Shown: positions 3,763 to 31,014 of the stretch, in pieces | How positions within the stretch are numbered: the stretch's first letter is position 1 | Layout: every line of letters begins with the position of its first letter | Virus record (IMG/VR): IMGVR_UViG_3300009184_000029 | Location: 1 to 64,000 of that record | Direction: 5' to 3' (one strand) | DNA from: a virus | DNA length: 64,000 bases | Notes under the pieces: model-generated | Seen by the model: the letters and a program-made list of their open reading frames with translations, nothing else | Database searches by the model: none | Told to the model about the DNA's origin: nothing | Program-made: the position numbers and the translations under genes

Positions 3763-3871
3763 AATAGCTATACTACACCCATTCCAAATTGTGTGGAGTT
3801 TCTTTGACAACGACGCTCACCGTATTGTAAGTAAAAGAGGACAAGAAATATTAAATAAGGAAAATGAATAA
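3740..3871 (+). CDS. Small hypothetical protein (43 aa)
   Basis: Reads from ATG 3740 to a TAA that overlaps the thyA start by 8 bp, bridging what would otherwise be a 100-bp gap in a run with no gaps. It has a hydrophobic centre and charged C terminus. Confidence 0.4.
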   Translation: MDWKTSFKIAILHPFQIVWSFFDNDAHRIVSKRGQEILNKENE

Positions 3872-4970
3872 ATTAGACCAACAATACCAAACATTACTCC
3901 AAACCATTTTAGATTTTGGGGTGGAGAAGAAAGACCGAACTGGTACAGGAACCAAATCAATTTTTGGTTATACCATTCGTCATAATATGAAAGATGGTTT
4001 TCCACTCCTCACAACCAAGAAGATGGCTTGGAAAACTATGGTAACTGAATTACTATGGTTTTTAAGAGGTGACACCAACATCAAATACCTTGTTGATAAC
4101 AATTGTCATATTTGGGATGGTGACGCTTATAAGAGGTATTCGGTTATTGCTGGAGTATCAACCCAAGTTGAGACATTAACACAAGAAGAATTCATCAACA
4201 AAATCAAAACAGATGATGAGTTTGCTAAGAAGTGGGGTGAATTAGGTCCAATTTATGGTAAGCAATGGAGAAGGTGGCATACAGGTTGGGATGTAGTTGA
4301 AGATAAGAGTAAAGAGGCTGGCGTAAGAAGGATTGAGTATGGGATAGACCAAATCGCAAACCTAATCAACGACCTTAAAACAAATCCAGACTCAAGACGA
4401 TTAATGGTTAATGCTTGGAATGTAGGTGAGATAGACCAAATGGTTCTTCCACCTTGTCATTATGGATTTCAAGTTTATACAAGAGAGTTGAGTTTGGAGG
4501 AAAGATTATTATTGGCAGATAAAATTTGTAAAGAAATTAGACAAGATTTATATACATACTCTTTCAATAACCCAATATATACTGGCGGTATAGACCAAAG
4601 ACCAGATGATGTAGAAAGACATCATTTACTAAATGACTTAAACATTCCAACAAGAGCAATCTCTTTAATGTGGAATCAACGTTCAGTAGATACATTCTTG
4701 GGTTTACCATTCAACATTGCAAGTTATGGTTTGTTATTAACTATGATTGCAGATGAAATGAATATGGTACCTGATGAATTGATTGGTAACTTGGGTGACA
4801 CTCACATTTACCTAAATCATATTGAACAAGCAAAAGAACAGATTGGTAGAGAACCATTTCCACTTCCTAAAGTAATAGTTCAAGATGGAATATTCTGTAG
4901 TTCAGTCAGTGATGTTATTTTGGAAAACTACCAATCACAACCATCAATTAAGGCACCGTTAAGTAATTAA
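3864..4970 (+). CDS. thyA: Thymidylate synthase (ThyA), with insertions
   Basis: Makes dTMP from dUMP using methylene-tetrahydrofolate. Family motifs are in order: RTGTGT and phosphate-binding arginine at 25-30, LLWFLRGDTNI 63-73, IWDGDAY 83-89, GPIYGKQWRRW 128-138, PDSRRLMVNAWN 175-186, catalytic Cys198 in LPPCHYGFQVY, QRSVDTFLGLPFNIASY 272-288 and GDTHIYLNH 311-319. At 368 residues it is about 100 longer than the usual 264, because of extra segments near 94-125, 143-157 and 207-263. Phages carry thyA to feed their own DNA synthesis. Confidence 0.95.
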   Translation: MNKLDQQYQTLLQTILDFGVEKKDRTGTGTKSIFGYTIRHNMKDGFPLLTTKKMAWKTMVTELLWFLRGDTNIKYLVDNNCHIWDGDAYKRYSVIAGVSTQVETLTQEEFINKIKTDDEFAKKWGELGPIYGKQWRRWHTGWDVVEDKSKEAGVRRIEYGIDQIANLINDLKTNPDSRRLMVNAWNVGEIDQMVLPPCHYGFQVYTRELSLEERLLLADKICKEIRQDLYTYSFNNPIYTGGIDQRPDDVERHHLLNDLNIPTRAISLMWNQRSVDTFLGLPFNIASYGLLLTMIADEMNMVPDELIGNLGDTHIYLNHIEQAKEQIGREPFPLPKVIVQDGIFCSSVSDVILENYQSQPSIKAPLSN

Positions 4971-19328: not shown

Positions 19329-19600
19329 ACTTACAAGAACAAATATCAAGAATACAATCAATGATGAGGGTTATTAATGAAAACTCGGTAGAAGATAAAA
19401 TTAATGACTTATCAGAAAAGGAAAGAACATTCCTTAAAGATTTCGGAACTGACCCCACATTAAGAAAACTAATGACATCTCAAGAGATTAAGACGGCAAA
19501 CAAATTAGTTAAGAAAGGTATGATGGAAAAAGGGACATCTGATGATAATAAATCAAATGTAATTTATTATGTTGACTCATTTGTATATAAAAGACTATGA
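19325..19600 (+). CDS. RIxxMM-leader protein (91 aa)
   Basis: Leader MNLQEQISRIQSMMRVINE|N; its DNA is almost identical to that of 18398, indicating recent copying of the leader module. The small helical body (TFLKDFGTDPTLRKLMTSQEIKTANKL) is unrecognised. ATGA overlaps at both ends. Confidence 0.6.
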   Translation: MNLQEQISRIQSMMRVINENSVEDKINDLSEKERTFLKDFGTDPTLRKLMTSQEIKTANKLVKKGMMEKGTSDDNKSNVIYYVDSFVYKRL

Positions 19601-20598
19601 ACCTACAGGAGCACATAAGAAGAGTATTAAGAGAGGAATTATCCCCAAGGATAAGAAGAAGACTTTCTAATGATGAAATGGAAAATGAATTTCTTGAATC
19701 TTTTGAAGGTGCTTATCGTCTTACAAAAAACAGAAAGGTTTTAAGTTCACATTTTTTAGATGAGTTAGTCTACACAACAATAACCTTTATGATGGATGGG
19801 GTGCATTGGAGATTTGTTAGCACATTACCTGAAGATGAATTTTGGTATGATGATATACATCAAGAATTAGAAAATCATTATAAAGACAGAATTATACAGA
19901 TGTATAATGAAAAACAAGGAATTAATGAATCAATATTAAGGGAAGAAACTAAGTTACCTGTTTATATTAGAAGAAGGGTAAGCCCTGGTGACCTTGAGTG
20001 GTTGATTAGGGATGTTAAAATTTCTTTAAGCAGGGGAAAGAATAAAAGTGATGCCTTATATGATGCAATTCAAAATCTTATTTCATCAAACAGAGAACTA
20101 TTAAAAGATTATGATATGTTCCAAGATGTGTACGCATTTGACGAACCACTAATTAGATATATCAATTCAAAATTGGACGAGGAACCGTTAAATGAATCAA
20201 TATTAAGGGAAGAAACCTCACGTCAAAATAACTTAAAAGATATACTCTCAGATGTTGGTGTTTATAATACTTCAAAAATGGTAGGAGGTATTAAAAATCT
20301 GTATAAATTACTTGGTTTTGTTGGGACTCAAGAGGAAATGATTTTAATTGTTAACACATTAATTAAACATGATATTCCGATTATAGAAAATATATGTGAT
20401 TTTAAAATTGTACCAACTCAAAACTCATTAAAACTATATGTGGAAATACCAAAATATTATCCTATTCATCCTGATGATTATTACCCGAACAGACAAAAAG
20501 TATTACAAGCGAGAGATAACATAAGTACCATGATAAATAAAATGGGAAATGGGTTAGTAAAAGGACATGTTGTAGAAGTTAGTATAGGTAAATGTTAA
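19597..20598 (+). CDS. Polyprotein-like fusion of three leader modules
   Basis: 333 residues in three repeats. Module 1: leader MNLQEHIRRVLREE (1-14) then RIRRRLSNDEMENEF. Module 2: INESILREET (109-118) then YIRRRVSPGDLEWLI. Module 3: LNESILREET (199-208) then NLKDILSDVGVYNTSKMVGGIKNL, a paralog of the 24774 body. Each module keeps an ILRE|E-type site, so a prohead protease could cut it into three proteins. Coupled to both neighbours by overlaps. Confidence 0.7.
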   Translation: MNLQEHIRRVLREELSPRIRRRLSNDEMENEFLESFEGAYRLTKNRKVLSSHFLDELVYTTITFMMDGVHWRFVSTLPEDEFWYDDIHQELENHYKDRIIQMYNEKQGINESILREETKLPVYIRRRVSPGDLEWLIRDVKISLSRGKNKSDALYDAIQNLISSNRELLKDYDMFQDVYAFDEPLIRYINSKLDEEPLNESILREETSRQNNLKDILSDVGVYNTSKMVGGIKNLYKLLGFVGTQEEMILIVNTLIKHDIPIIENICDFKIVPTQNSLKLYVEIPKYYPIHPDDYYPNRQKVLQARDNISTMINKMGNGLVKGHVVEVSIGKC

Positions 20599-21302: not shown

Positions 21303-21602
21303 TTAATCAATAATCAATAAATTCTTAAATTCAAAACCTGTCTTACTCTCAACCCAATCTCCGATAATATTCATCGTTTCACCTCTATCTAAACTAAAAA
21401 AGGAGGATATCGTTTTTACAAAATCTTTTTTTATAAAACAATATGTTTGTTTGAAGGTGGATATTATGATTTCACGGTTTTCAATATTATAATTGTTCCA
21501 AAAGTGATAATCACCATCATTGTTTGTAACATAAAAGTTTTGTATATTAAGATAACGAAAGATTACTTTCTCTAACTGTGATTCTGTTATCAAGTATTTC
21601 AT
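21303..21602 (-). CDS. ITESQ-leader protein, WVE-type body
   Basis: MKYLITESQLEKVIFRYLNIQNF leader, then HFWNNYN strand, SSFFSLDRGE helix and IGDWVESK at the end, the plan shared with 21969, 24100, 24409 and 25230. First of a leftward cluster of four leader genes. Function unknown; likely packaged if the leader works as proposed. Confidence 0.6.
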   Translation of the reverse strand: MKYLITESQLEKVIFRYLNIQNFYVTNNDGDYHFWNNYNIENREIIISTFKQTYCFIKKDFVKTISSFFSLDRGETMNIIGDWVESKTGFEFKNLLIID

Positions 21603-21968: not shown

Positions 21969-22301
21969 TTAATTAGACGGAATCTGCATCCACTCAGATT
22001 TAATATTATTGGCCCACAAACAAAAATCAATATCTACCTTTAAGGTCTCCCCAACCCATCTACCGATAGTTTCCCTAGCATCATAACCTTGCATAGAAAA
22101 AAAAGAAGCAACCTCACCAATTAATCCTGTATATATGACACATTTACTATCCTTTTTAAAATATCTAATCTGAGCATATTCATCACCTTCTGAATTTACA
22201 AAGTATACACCATCACCCTTCTCAATCTGAATGAAGTCCTGATTATCCAAGTACTTAAAGATTATTCTATCTAATTGTGATTCTGTAATTAAGTATTTCA
22301 T
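21969..22301 (-). CDS. ITESQ-leader protein, WVE-type body
   Basis: MKYLITESQLDRIIFKYLDNQDFI, VYFVNSEGDEYAQIRYF, VASFFSMQG and IGRWVGETL: a clear paralog of 24409 (near-identical first 35 residues, and both end in IPSN). Probable tandem duplication within the cluster. Confidence 0.65.
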   Translation of the reverse strand: MKYLITESQLDRIIFKYLDNQDFIQIEKGDGVYFVNSEGDEYAQIRYFKKDSKCVIYTGLIGEVASFFSMQGYDARETIGRWVGETLKVDIDFCLWANNIKSEWMQIPSN

Positions 22302-23400: not shown

Positions 23401-24107
23401 GATACAGAACAATTATAATGAGTGATTTACATCTTGGCGCAAAACAATCACAGACGGACAAGATAATAAAGTTCTTGGAAGAAAACCAAACGGACAAGTT
23501 AATACTAAACGGAGATATCATAGATGGTTGGGCACTCAAAGGTAGTGGTAAGTGGACAAAGGATTGCACCAAGATATTCAGGAAGTTTATGAAGATGTCG
23601 GAGAAGGATACAAAGGTAATTTATATAAGGGGAAACCACGATGACTTCCTAAAAGATTTCATTCCGTTTAAGTTAAACAATATAAGGATTGTAAGGAAGT
23701 ATGTACATGAAGGAATGGACGGAAGAACATACTTTTGTTTTCACGGGGATGTATTGGATTTCGTTATAATGGAAGCAAGATGGTTGGCAGTAATCGGTGG
23801 ATGGTCATATGATATTGTCATTAAGTTTAATACTCTATACAACAAAATAAGAAAGTGGTTTAACTTACCATATCATTCACTGGCAAATACAATAAAACAA
23901 TCTGTTAAAGGGGCGATTAACTTTGTATCTGATTTCGAAGAAAACGCGAAAGGTTTAACAAAACAGAAGGGATATGATGTTGCGGTGTGTGGACATATTC
24001 ATCACCCGAAGTTAGAGAATGACTATATGAATTCAGGAGACTTTTGTGAGAACTCTACATGTCTTGTAGAAGATTATAATGGGGAGTGGAAAATAATTAC
24101 TATATAA
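23397..24107 (+). CDS. Metallophosphoesterase (LpxH-like)
   Basis: Calcineurin-like dinuclear metal site: SDLHLGA (D-x-H), NGDIIDGWAL (GD), IRGNHDD (GNHD), FHGDVLDF (H) and CGHIHHP (GHxH), all in order. Best match in layout is the UDP-2,3-diacylglucosamine hydrolase group. ATG 23397 overlaps the glycosyltransferase stop. Possible role in modifying lipid A or a phosphorylated sugar; substrate inferred only by family. Confidence 0.85.
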   Translation: MRYRTIIMSDLHLGAKQSQTDKIIKFLEENQTDKLILNGDIIDGWALKGSGKWTKDCTKIFRKFMKMSEKDTKVIYIRGNHDDFLKDFIPFKLNNIRIVRKYVHEGMDGRTYFCFHGDVLDFVIMEARWLAVIGGWSYDIVIKFNTLYNKIRKWFNLPYHSLANTIKQSVKGAINFVSDFEENAKGLTKQKGYDVAVCGHIHHPKLENDYMNSGDFCENSTCLVEDYNGEWKIITI

Positions 24108-24396
24108 TTATAACTTCTTTAACTCTTCTATCCAAAGTATTCTCAACCCATCTAGCGATAACATATTTAGCATTATCAAATTCTATAGAGAAGAAATTTT
24201 TAATCTCATCAATTAACTCAAAACTTATTACACAGTCACCACTTCTAAAGTATTGGATTAATGAGTCCTTATATTCATCACCCTCTGAATTAACGAAGTA
24301 TATTGTATTTCCTTTTTTAATCTGAATAAAGTCCTGATTGTTCAAGTATATGAAGATTACTCTATCTAATTGTGATTCTGTGATTAAGTATTTCAT
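24100..24396 (-). CDS. ITESQ-leader protein, WVE-type body
   Basis: MKYLITESQLDRVIFIYLNNQDFI, IYFVNSEGDEYKDSLI, FFSIEFDNAK, IARWVENTLDRRVKEVIII. Paralog of 24409 and 21969. Preceded by AATATTTATC on the reverse strand. Confidence 0.65.
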   Translation of the reverse strand: MKYLITESQLDRVIFIYLNNQDFIQIKKGNTIYFVNSEGDEYKDSLIQYFRSGDCVISFELIDEIKNFFSIEFDNAKYVIARWVENTLDRRVKEVIII

Positions 24397-24408
24397 TATT
24401 GATAAATA

Positions 24409-24741
24409 TTAGTTAGATGGTATTCTCAACATATATCCACGGTGGAAAGATACAAAAGGGGTGTCAGTGACCCTCATTTGGAGGGTATTCTCAACCCACC
24501 TACCAATAACTTGTTCAGAATCAGATTCATCCAAAGAAAAGAAGGAAGAAATTTCATCCATTAATTTGTAATATATCCCACACCAACCATCATCTTTATC
24601 ATATCTGATTTGAGCATATTCATCACCTTCTGAATTGGCGAAGTATATATTATCACCCTTTTCTATCGGAATAAAATCTTGGTTGTCAAGATACCTAAAG
24701 ACTATTTTATCTAATTGTGATTCGGTGATAAGATATTTCAT
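24409..24741 (-). CDS. ITESQ-leader protein, WVE-type body
   Basis: MKYLITESQLDKIVFRYLDNQDFI, IYFANSEGDEYAQIRY, ISSFFSLDESDSEQVIGRWVENTLQMRV. This is the reference form for judging the gene at 25230: its WVENTLQMRV helix aligns with the first repeat there. Confidence 0.65.
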   Translation of the reverse strand: MKYLITESQLDKIVFRYLDNQDFIPIEKGDNIYFANSEGDEYAQIRYDKDDGWCGIYYKLMDEISSFFSLDESDSEQVIGRWVENTLQMRVTDTPFVSFHRGYMLRIPSN

Positions 24742-24773: not shown

Positions 24774-25229
24774 ATGAATCTACAAGAAAACGTAAGAAGA
24801 ATATTAAGGGAAGAATACACCGCAAAACAAATGAAGTTATTAACTCTGGCAAGTAAGGTGGGGTTACTAAAGGTAGGGAAAATGCTCGGAGGTGTAGAAG
24901 ACCTTATAAATGTGTTAGGTGATGAGTTCCTTACAACAAACAATAAGATTAAGATTATTAAGGAAATAGTAGAAACAACCGATGATGAATATATTACACT
25001 AATGGACATGAATGAAAATCCAATAGTTCTCAAGGATGAAGACGGTAAACTTTCACAAATAGAAATGATATATAGAGAAGATGTTGCAGTGTTCCATTAT
25101 GGTGGATATAAATACTCACAAGATTTAGGTGAAAGTTATATGTCTTATGAAGAACTACCAAAATATGTATTAGATGATATTTTTGATATGGTATTAGATT
25201 TCTATACAGGTACTTTAGAGAATAACTAA
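24774..25229 (+). CDS. LREE-type leader protein (151 aa)
   Basis: Leader MNLQENVRRILREEYTA (LRE|E). Body LLTLASKVGLLKVGKMLGGVEDLINVLG is paralogous to module 3 of the 19597 fusion; the acidic C terminus is unrecognised. Convergent with 25230, sharing no terminator. Confidence 0.6.
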   Translation: MNLQENVRRILREEYTAKQMKLLTLASKVGLLKVGKMLGGVEDLINVLGDEFLTTNNKIKIIKEIVETTDDEYITLMDMNENPIVLKDEDGKLSQIEMIYREDVAVFHYGGYKYSQDLGESYMSYEELPKYVLDDIFDMVLDFYTGTLENN

Positions 25230-25688
25230 TTATTGATTTAATACCTCTTCCACCCCTCTTGTGAAGGGTCCAAAATATGATTCCGTTGTAGATACCTTAT
25301 GATTTAATACCTCTTCCACCTTCCAAGGAACACGAACTTTAACATCGCACGTTGTGGATACCTTATGATTTAAGACCTCTTCCACCAAATGGGCATCATT
25401 GAAAAACGCATCACCAGTTGTGGATACCTTATGATTTAATACCTCTTCCACCCAAGAAGATAGAACAGGACTAAAATCACCTGAACTCATAGAGAATATT
25501 TTAAAAAACGAATTAAAAAAATCATATCTCCACCATAAAGTACCTGACTTATCAAGTTCGAAGTACCAATGTTTATTATCCCTATTAATGAACCATATTG
25601 ACCCATTATAAGGAATAATCTCACAATCACCCAACTCTTTATATAGGTGTTTAAAAATAACTTGTTTAAATCTATCTGTAATAACCAT
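25230..25688 (-). CDS. Leader-less WVE-family protein whose 3' end carries 36-bp repeats
   Basis: Residues 1-80 are homologous to the WVE-type proteins (MVITDRFKQVIFKHL, IWFINRDNKHWYFEL, FFKIFSMSSGDF, LSSWVEEVLNHKV) but lack the TES of the leader. The last 70 residues repeat VEEVLNHKVSTT at 22-residue spacing, corresponding exactly to a 36-bp DNA repeat with 30-bp unrelated inserts. The frame stays open because 66 is divisible by 3. A host-type promoter (TATATTTG at 25700-25693) sits 4 bp before the ATG. The repeat tail may be protein, a CRISPR-like array, or both. Confidence 0.55.
   Translation of the reverse strand: MVITDRFKQVIFKHLYKELGDCEIIPYNGSIWFINRDNKHWYFELDKSGTLWWRYDFFNSFFKIFSMSSGDFSPVLSSWVEEVLNHKVSTTGDAFFNDAHLVEEVLNHKVSTTCDVKVRVPWKVEEVLNHKVSTTESYFGPFTRGVEEVLNQ
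25234..25452 (-). CRISPR. Mini CRISPR-like array: 3 full repeats, 1 partial, 3 spacers
   Basis: Full 36-bp repeats at 25285-25320, 25351-25386 and 25417-25452 differ by one base each from a consensus (GTTGTGGATACCTTATGA at the left end, TTTAATACCTCTTCCACC at the right end, + strand). A 21-nt partial repeat sits at 25234-25254. The three 30-bp spacers (25255-25284, 25321-25350, 25387-25416) show no resemblance to each other. GTGGA and TCCAC near the repeat ends could pair. 36/30 geometry fits several Bacteroidota CRISPR types. No cas gene is in the window. The degenerate repeat marks the trailer end, so the leader side is the host gene 25230-25688. Confidence 0.5.
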
Positions 25689-25692
25689 AGTA

Positions 25693-25724
25693 CAAATATA
25701 GTAAGAAATTAAGAAATAAACAAA
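25693..25724 (-). promoter_or_regulatory. Bacteroidota-type promoter, leaderless
   Basis: Reverse strand: TTTG (25724-25721), 20 bp, TATATTTG (25700-25693), then ATG 25688 after 4 bp. It would transcribe the gene and the CRISPR-like array. Confidence 0.55.
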
Positions 25725-25816
25725 CTCATTCCCCCATCCCCACTTTCAGTGGTCGTTCCATTCCCCTTCGGGTCATTACACTAATGGGTACATTCATTTG
25801 TTTACTTCTTAATTTC
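25705..25816. repeat. Long inverted repeat (20-bp arms)
   Basis: GAAATTAAGAAATAAACAAA at 25705-25724 pairs with TTTGTTTACTTCTTAATTTC at 25797-25816 with a single mismatch; the 72-nt centre contains C-rich and GGGT stretches. Confidence 0.7.
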
Positions 25817-28536: not shown

Positions 28537-28863
28537 ATGAAAAAAGTTGTAAGATTAACTGAAAGAGATTTAATAAGACTTGTGGAAAATGTGGGTTCAG
28601 TCTATCTTAATAGGAGAACCAAATATATAGATGAAATTCTTGATGAGGTAATATCTGAAATAACTAATGGTGAATTTCATTTTGAGGATTATGATGATTA
28701 TAAGTCGGAGGTTATTTGGACAACTTTGTCTACGATGGAGTATGACGAGGGACGTGATTTACCAAAAGAATATATTGAGGATTATTTTTCATTTATGGAG
28801 AGACCTGAGTTTATTGATAAAATTAAGAGGGGATATTCTATGTTTAAGAAGAGTAGAAAATAA
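28537..28863 (+). CDS. RLTES-type leader protein (108 aa)
   Basis: Begins MKKVVRLTERDLIRLVENVG, the first of five proteins sharing KKVVRLTE-x-DLxxxV. Acidic aromatic body ending basic (FKKSRK). Late-type promoter upstream and a terminator downstream make it a single-gene unit. Confidence 0.6.
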   Translation: MKKVVRLTERDLIRLVENVGSVYLNRRTKYIDEILDEVISEITNGEFHFEDYDDYKSEVIWTTLSTMEYDEGRDLPKEYIEDYFSFMERPEFIDKIKRGYSMFKKSRK

Positions 28864-30702: not shown

Positions 30703-31014
30703 ATGAAATATATTATCACCGAGTCTCAGAATTTACAAATGAGGAAAGTTAATTTCTTGAAGAACTATATTCAGAACTTATTATCTAAGTACAAATGGTT
30801 TAAAGGTGATGTTAAGATAGATGTAACGACTTGGGATGCATCAAATAAGACATATCCTTTATATAATATTATACTAAATACAGGTGGTCGTAGTTATCAT
30901 GCTTATGATGAGGGTTTAGATATTGAGAATAATATTAATACCATGTTTGGTTTATTATTTCCTAAAGATGAAAACGGAGATTCTAGTGCGGTATGGGATG
31001 TTCTTTTTGTATAA
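30703..31014 (+). CDS. ITESQ-leader protein (103 aa)
   Basis: MKYIITESQNLQMRKVNFLKN leader (ITE|S). The body (VKIDVTTWDASNKTYPLYNIILNTGG, VWDVLFV) resembles the leader-less 13632 protein in layout. Followed by the second C-tract element. Confidence 0.6.
   Translation: MKYIITESQNLQMRKVNFLKNYIQNLLSKYKWFKGDVKIDVTTWDASNKTYPLYNIILNTGGRSYHAYDEGLDIENNINTMFGLLFPKDENGDSSAVWDVLFV

Follow-up and report, generated by a model that had tools for sequence, protein, structure and literature searches.

CRISPR-like arrays within the reading frames of small genes in large Bacteroidota phages

Why should a small phage gene end in what looks like a CRISPR array, and what does it mean for such an array to be translated? 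The locus that raises this question lies in the window (the whole 64,000-nucleotide stretch analysed, from IMG/VR record IMGVR_UViG_3300009184_000029; here G000, 222,829 bp), and it is the single array found in that record. We find that large Bacteroidota phages hold CRISPR-like arrays in the reading frames of small genes, and that these arrays are filled with fragments of bacterial chromosomal genes. Because the array is in a reading frame, the same DNA is protein code and possibly also a store of guide RNAs against the host.

An array at the end of a phage gene

The original prediction described three 36-bp repeats, three 30-bp spacers and a 21-nt partial repeat at 25234-25452, and these exact coordinates were confirmed on the minus strand. 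The array lies within gene 25688..25230 (minus strand, 152 aa), where an N-terminal domain of about 80 aa is followed by a translated array of 22-aa units; each unit measures 36 + 30 = 66 bp, or 22 codons, and reads in the open reading frame list as VEEVLNHKVSTT plus 10 variable residues. The 5'-most repeat, R1 (25417..25452), encodes the natural gene end (..WVEEVLNHKV). It had been proposed to be the gene's own end, and array-less paralogs indeed read WVENTLQMRV or WVENTLDRRV at the same place. R1 is followed by spacer S1 (25387..25416, peptide GDAFFNDAHL), which occurs only in this phage and has no exact 24-nt match in IMG/VR, then by repeat R2 (25351..25386), spacer S2 (25321..25350, CDVKVRVPWK, colinear in relatives too), repeat R3 (25285..25320) and spacer S3 (25255..25284, ESYFGPFTRG), a distal spacer common to relatives, all on the minus strand. 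The degenerate copy is distal, as predicted: the first 21 nt of the repeat (25234..25254, minus strand) are followed by the stop codon.

Near-identical repeats with unrelated spacers of similar length between them are what is expected of a CRISPR array. The pattern of two repeat ends with 36/30 spacing matched twice in the window and never in 100 shuffles, and among 123 distinct units from relatives the conserved block comprises 36 positions (GGTGGAAGAGGTATTAAATCATAAGGTATCCACAAC), the remaining 30 being nearly information-free. Pfam and PHROG searches with the array gene gave no match, and an Rfam search returned nothing at the array. AlphaFold, run on one array protein without an alignment, gave a pLDDT of 50, and the model was left unused.

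A Bacteroidota-type promoter motif (TTTG-N20-TATATTTG; 25693..25724, minus strand) is located immediately upstream of the start codon and is kept upstream of most orthologous array genes. In most phages having an operon of three array genes, TTTG-N19-TATCTTTG precedes the first gene, and the TTTG-N19/20-TANNTTTG promoter is absent upstream of the second and third. The predicted host-type promoter directed toward the array is thus real as a conserved motif, but motifs of this kind are not unusual in the window, which has 6 against an expected 2.6. No separate leader signal, in the form of DNA-level conservation, was found upstream of R1, because codon positions vary there as in a normal protein domain. 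An imperfect inverted repeat with 33-nt arms (79% complementary) is also present upstream of the array gene, at window positions 25705-25816.

The same gene family occurs in 19 IMG/VR phage contigs, each phage carrying between one and four array genes. Scanning IMG/VR for the repeat identified 17 stretches on 14 contigs, and a protein search 14 loci on the same contigs; a later pattern scan added L092, L095, L101, L107 and L109, where L092 and L107 share one identical array. Most array genes have 3-9 repeats (units) each, up to 27 repeat copies are found per phage, and several phages carry three array genes in tandem, each start overlapping the preceding stop. The 66-bp period is nearly fixed across about 40 arrays, and the few other spacings are all multiples of three, including an in-frame 72-bp unit (VEDVLSHNVKVSTT) common to the family A arrays L018, L021, L022, L024 and L025. 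The trait is therefore old and lineage-wide, with several array gene families, and does not reflect a single recent off-target event.

Spacer turnover, translation and origin

Spacers turn over between related phages in the polarised manner of CRISPR arrays, as the original prediction had anticipated. Among close pairs, defined as arrays whose gene bodies differ by no more than 17 of 240 nt, all 50 informative pairs were colinear, and the fraction of shared units rose from 33% at the 5' (gene) end to 83-85% at the 3' (distal) end. Close relatives have distal units in common and in the same order, and their 5' ends differ; L018 and L021, for example, have gene bodies just 0.4% apart but do not share either of their first two spacers.

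The arrays are also constrained by translation. Across 81 unrelated spacers (810 codons) there is no in-frame stop, as compared with 28-70 stops in the other five frames; in an extended set, one of 112 spacer families contained a stop, in a false unit that overran the gene end (AMERPL*). Nearly all host type VI-B arrays collected with this pattern are interrupted by stops in every frame, and their spacing varies by a few bases. Amino-acid composition in frame 0 is more protein-like than in the other frames. Shared spacers showed 17 synonymous and 17 non-synonymous changes, giving an omega of about 0.36 (P about 0.003 at kappa 3), where the counts are small and the choice of path favours synonymous steps; omega was 0.34 for the N-terminal domain and 0.67 for the repeats. 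By these substitution counts the translated tail is under purifying selection, and the spacer value indicates that the encoded protein also matters. Inserts conserved as protein, with synonymous changes dominating, had been named as a pattern that would speak against a CRISPR origin, and the shared spacers go part of the way toward it.

The spacers differ in composition from the phage that carries them, with 43.5% GC (GC3 42%) as compared with 30.7% for the phage genome (coding GC3 20%). GC content falls from 47% in the 5'-most spacers to 41% in the most distal, which fits later amelioration. For at least seven spacers, 26-28 of 30 nt agree with a Bacteroidota chromosomal gene, the gene names having been read by eye from the protein sequences. 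Protospacer orientation is mixed: the spacers matching L13 (rplM, 26/30), S8 (rpsH, 27/30) and ClpP (clpP, 26/30) are antisense, and those matching an aldehyde dehydrogenase (ALDH, 28/30), CysD (cysD, 27/30), an M28 peptidase (26/30) and a lipoprotein (27/30, both changed whole codons being synonymous) are sense. Together with the GC3 excess, these matches show spacers that come from other genomes, again as in a CRISPR array. Candidate protospacers in Tex (25/30) and NDH-2 (22/30) were treated as weak.

Matches to 28 mostly 5'-proximal spacers were present in 17 of 398 genomes of one Bacteroidota order and recurred in the same orthologs, rplM and rpsH, plus clpP; the same query matched 3 of 396 genomes across the phylum and 1 of 245 in another class. 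This order, which has members of 0.3-0.6 Mb, is suggested to be the Flavobacteriales. A low-GC set of 40 spacers matched in 21 of the 398 genomes, with ALDH, cysD and the M28 peptidase among the matches. Since the same 40 spacers, reversed, matched in 2 of 99 genomes (weakly, at E about 0.006-0.008, none below 0.006), the numerical excess of this set is only moderate, and its support comes from the best matches (E down to 7e-5) and the coherence of the orthologs. A higher-GC set of 42 other spacers matched in 1 of 398 genomes, which is the background level, and that match was the lipoprotein. Read in the frame of the bacterial gene, the peptides are near-identical: VYIRYTGYP/VYLRYTGYP (L13), RSKERIFSVR/RAKERIFSVR (CysD) and DGGVYYAPE/DGGVYYAPE. 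The S8 spacer of L204, L205 and L207 reads VMTDKKARQ in the S8 frame, as it does in L206 and L212.

No shared PAM was visible among eight protospacers. Spacers compared with INPHARED phages gave just one 22-nt chance match (E=3), the newest spacers had no match among plasmids, exact 24-mers of two spacers found no protospacer in IMG/VR, and 0.62 Mb of phage DNA yielded chance-level matches only. Of the comparisons originally suggested, the one with Bacteroidota chromosomes gave matches, and those with phages and plasmids and the search for a shared PAM did not; a complete lack of protospacers, named at the outset as evidence against the prediction, is contradicted by the seven or more chromosomal genes.

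Likeness to type VI-B repeats

Type VI-B arrays have 36/30 geometry, and Cas13b recognises the repeat hairpin (PMC13187072); VI-B adaptation can be provided in trans by II-C machinery (PMC8092290). R3 is identical at 24 of 36 positions, including the last 12 nt, to the published 36/30 repeat of F. columnare (PMC5395568), and the best identities between coding repeats and host VI-B repeats are 24-27 of 36. In the genomes of 12 VI-B hosts, no close match to the phage repeat was found. A sequence model of 37 host repeats, which included no coding phage repeat, recognised the coding repeats of L095 (22 bits, E=7e-5) and gave just 10.8 bits (E=0.16) for the window's own. In genome_contigs, the pattern of ends and spacing identified 49 loci, nearly all titled Bacteroidota (one MAG being titled 'uncultured bacterium'), and the large genes adjoining these loci encoded Cas13b in 7 of 7 tested; the invariant ends of this host panel follow from the search pattern, but its taxonomy and Cas13b neighbours do not. 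Across 99 distinct repeats, inner hairpin positions were paired in 87% of cells, versus 33-68% when slid, with covariation no greater than in shuffles. A lack of resemblance to any host CRISPR repeat would have weighed against the original prediction, and what we found instead is VI-B-like sequence, 36/30 geometry and a predicted hairpin.

As judged from sequence, the phage arrays and the Cas13b arrays of Bacteroidota share the 36-bp repeat, the 30-bp spacer, the GKTG...ACAAC ends, a predicted central hairpin and the leader-to-array sense. The host arrays are non-coding, vary in spacing by a few bases and are often located beside cas13b, whereas the phage arrays are coding and nearly always have a period of 66 bp, with neither Cas1 (in G000) nor Cas12/TnpB (in 18 records) found.

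The array-less paralog 24409-24741 carries, antisense within its 3' end, a solitary VI-B-like repeat (24462..24493, plus strand; host model E=0.012), and array-less paralogs in L022, L024, L028, L030 and L031 have a counterpart at the homologous place. Apart from two hits taken as chance, all host-model hits outside arrays are in such paralog 3' ends, on the opposite strand, at six loci that count as one observation because the paralogs are related to each other. These hits indicate that the gene end resembles a VI-B repeat even without an array, and it is possible that the array-less paralogs hold a coding, Racr-like solitary repeat unit. The hits in L038 and L039, the latter within a 2138-aa gene, were taken as chance. 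Separately, the viral contig L094 contains a three-repeat array (3841-4008) whose repeat strongly matches those of VI-B hosts (36 bits, E=2e-9); this array may be a phage-borne VI-B mini-array or host contamination.

Formation and possible roles of the arrays

The arrays very probably originated through a Cas1-Cas2-type integrase that placed chromosome-derived 30-bp fragments at a VI-B-like repeat. To our knowledge, no mechanism other than integration of the Cas1-Cas2 type yields uniform inserts together with a duplicated repeat and polarity toward the gene side. A search of G000 found no Cas1, so the host would have to supply the associated adaptation genes. In the proposed mechanism, small phage genes would end in a 36-bp sequence that serves both as the last codons of the protein and as a VI-B-like CRISPR repeat. 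During infection of Bacteroidota, host Cas1-Cas2 would duplicate the repeat nearest the gene (the 5' one) each time it inserts a 30-bp fragment there, and at least some of these fragments would come from the host chromosome. Because each event adds 66 bp, the reading frame survives stop-free insertions; a variant whose spacer brings a stop codon would be lost. The original prediction of a neo-CRISPR made by off-target Cas1-Cas2 integration is supported in that the locus behaves as an array grown in a phage gene, with uniform units, 5' turnover and foreign spacers, but not as regards one recent event, given the lineage-wide occurrence in 19 contigs and the VI-B-like palindrome already carried by array-less paralogs.

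Among the possible functions, a role as guides for host Cas13b ranks first, ahead of its rivals, and we would give it about an even chance of being right. The gene promoter drives the array in the sense of the VI-B repeat, so the mRNA could act as pre-crRNA, which host Cas13b would most likely bind and process, presumably to the benefit of the phage. Antisense spacers (L13, S8, ClpP) would then yield guides against host transcripts, or at least keep Cas13b occupied. Not all spacers could guide an RNA-targeting enzyme, since protospacers occur in both orientations, and purifying selection on spacer peptides, which guide function does not need, speaks against this reading.

That no targeting logic is visible in spacer orientation or PAM favours another reading, in which the arrays, with the same origin, would act as decoys, their repeats sequestering host Cas13b or diverting Cas1-Cas2 from phage-derived spacers and their spacer content being incidental. 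The many repeat copies per genome, up to 27 in several arrays, are consistent with such a sponge, as is the observation that extraneous crRNA can sequester Cas13b (PMC13187072), and the solitary repeats of array-less paralogs resemble the solitary units behind Racrs (PMC10651486). A sponge, however, requires neither spacers nor translation through them, and the survey of PMC10651486 contains no type VI Racrs; we consider this account rather unlikely. Translation is instead central to a protein-level explanation, whereby the 22-aa repeat tail is selected, for example as a multivalent binding surface, and the likeness to CRISPR comes from unit addition or coincidence. The stop-free frame of 81 unrelated spacers, its protein-like composition and a spacer omega (17 synonymous, 17 non-synonymous changes) equal to that of the N-terminal domain all favour it. 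Yet some chromosomal spacers lie antisense or in other frames (L13, S8, ClpP, CysD), which shows that what was captured was not peptide sequence as such; independent spacers bear no relation to one another, the polarity is of CRISPR type, and the repeats match VI-B at the DNA level and have a higher omega than the spacers. We regard a purely protein-level explanation as unlikely.

A final alternative replaces Cas13b as the partner with a compact effector of type V (Cas12u/TnpB-like). Non-coding 36/30 arrays stand next to Cas12u3/Cas12u4-like (TnpB-like) effectors in other phage contigs recovered with the pattern, which leaves room for this alternative, and the repeats of these arrays (best 23-27 of 36) are about as close to the coding repeats as those of host VI-B arrays. 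Against it, Cas12/TnpB (PF07282) is absent from the 18 coding-array records, which are mostly fragments but include records of 240 and 223 kb, and one Cas12u-like effector used as a query had no match in 11 of the 18. Such an effector was rejected as the phage's own, and a type V partner appears very unlikely. The compact effectors were observed beside non-coding arrays in L093, L096, L097, L100, L102, L104, L106 and L108, where the repeat ends are VI-B-like.

Beyond the guide reading, host CRISPR adaptation might write foreign 30-bp fragments into a phage protein as heritable diversity, each event adding 10 residues, and the DNA concerned might double as guide RNA; a dual-coding array of this kind seems doubtful. 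Array translation is nonetheless the new element relative to cas-less phage arrays, and a limited search of the open-access literature found no report of a translated CRISPR array. If borne out, the proposed scheme would mean that a CRISPR array can persist while being translated, and that phages are able to co-opt the spacer acquisition of their hosts for genes of their own, stocking the arrays with host housekeeping genes. It would mean, too, that RNA-targeting VI-B systems can be made to work against the bacteria that own them. The scheme would also provide a natural case for the birth of an array from ordinary coding sequence.

The closest known kind is the cas-less array of huge phages (Al-Shayeb et al. 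2020, PMC7162821), which uses host Cas proteins and has spacers that target host transcription and translation genes. Both kinds are compact, with host-like repeats and host-gene spacers, and lack Cas1/Cas2 there and Cas1 here (G000); the present arrays differ in lying inside an open reading frame and being translated, in the several paralogous array genes per phage, and in their VI-B-type repeats. Viral mini-CRISPR arrays (PMC11656645) likewise bring repeats and spacers into viruses with no accompanying cas genes and are presumed to rely on host Cas, but they have 1-2 spacers, mostly against related viruses, and repeats identical to those of the host, in contrast to the mostly 3-9 units, chromosomal spacers, diverged repeats and coding nature found here. 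Repeat mimicry in phage genomes is shared with Racrs (PMC10651486), through the one VI-B-like repeat of array-less paralogs. Racrs are solitary small non-coding RNAs, with no type VI example, whereas the array described here is multi-unit and coding and so differs from a single-repeat, non-coding RNA.

Many small genes in the window share short N-terminal tags (MKYLITESQL, MNLQENVRRILREE, MKKVVRLTERDLIRLV) before unrelated bodies (19597-20598, 21303-21602, 21969-22301, 24100-24396, 24409-24741, 24774-25229, 28537-28863 and 30703-31014). By analogy, these tags recall the capsid-targeting sequences of internal proteins that phages package.
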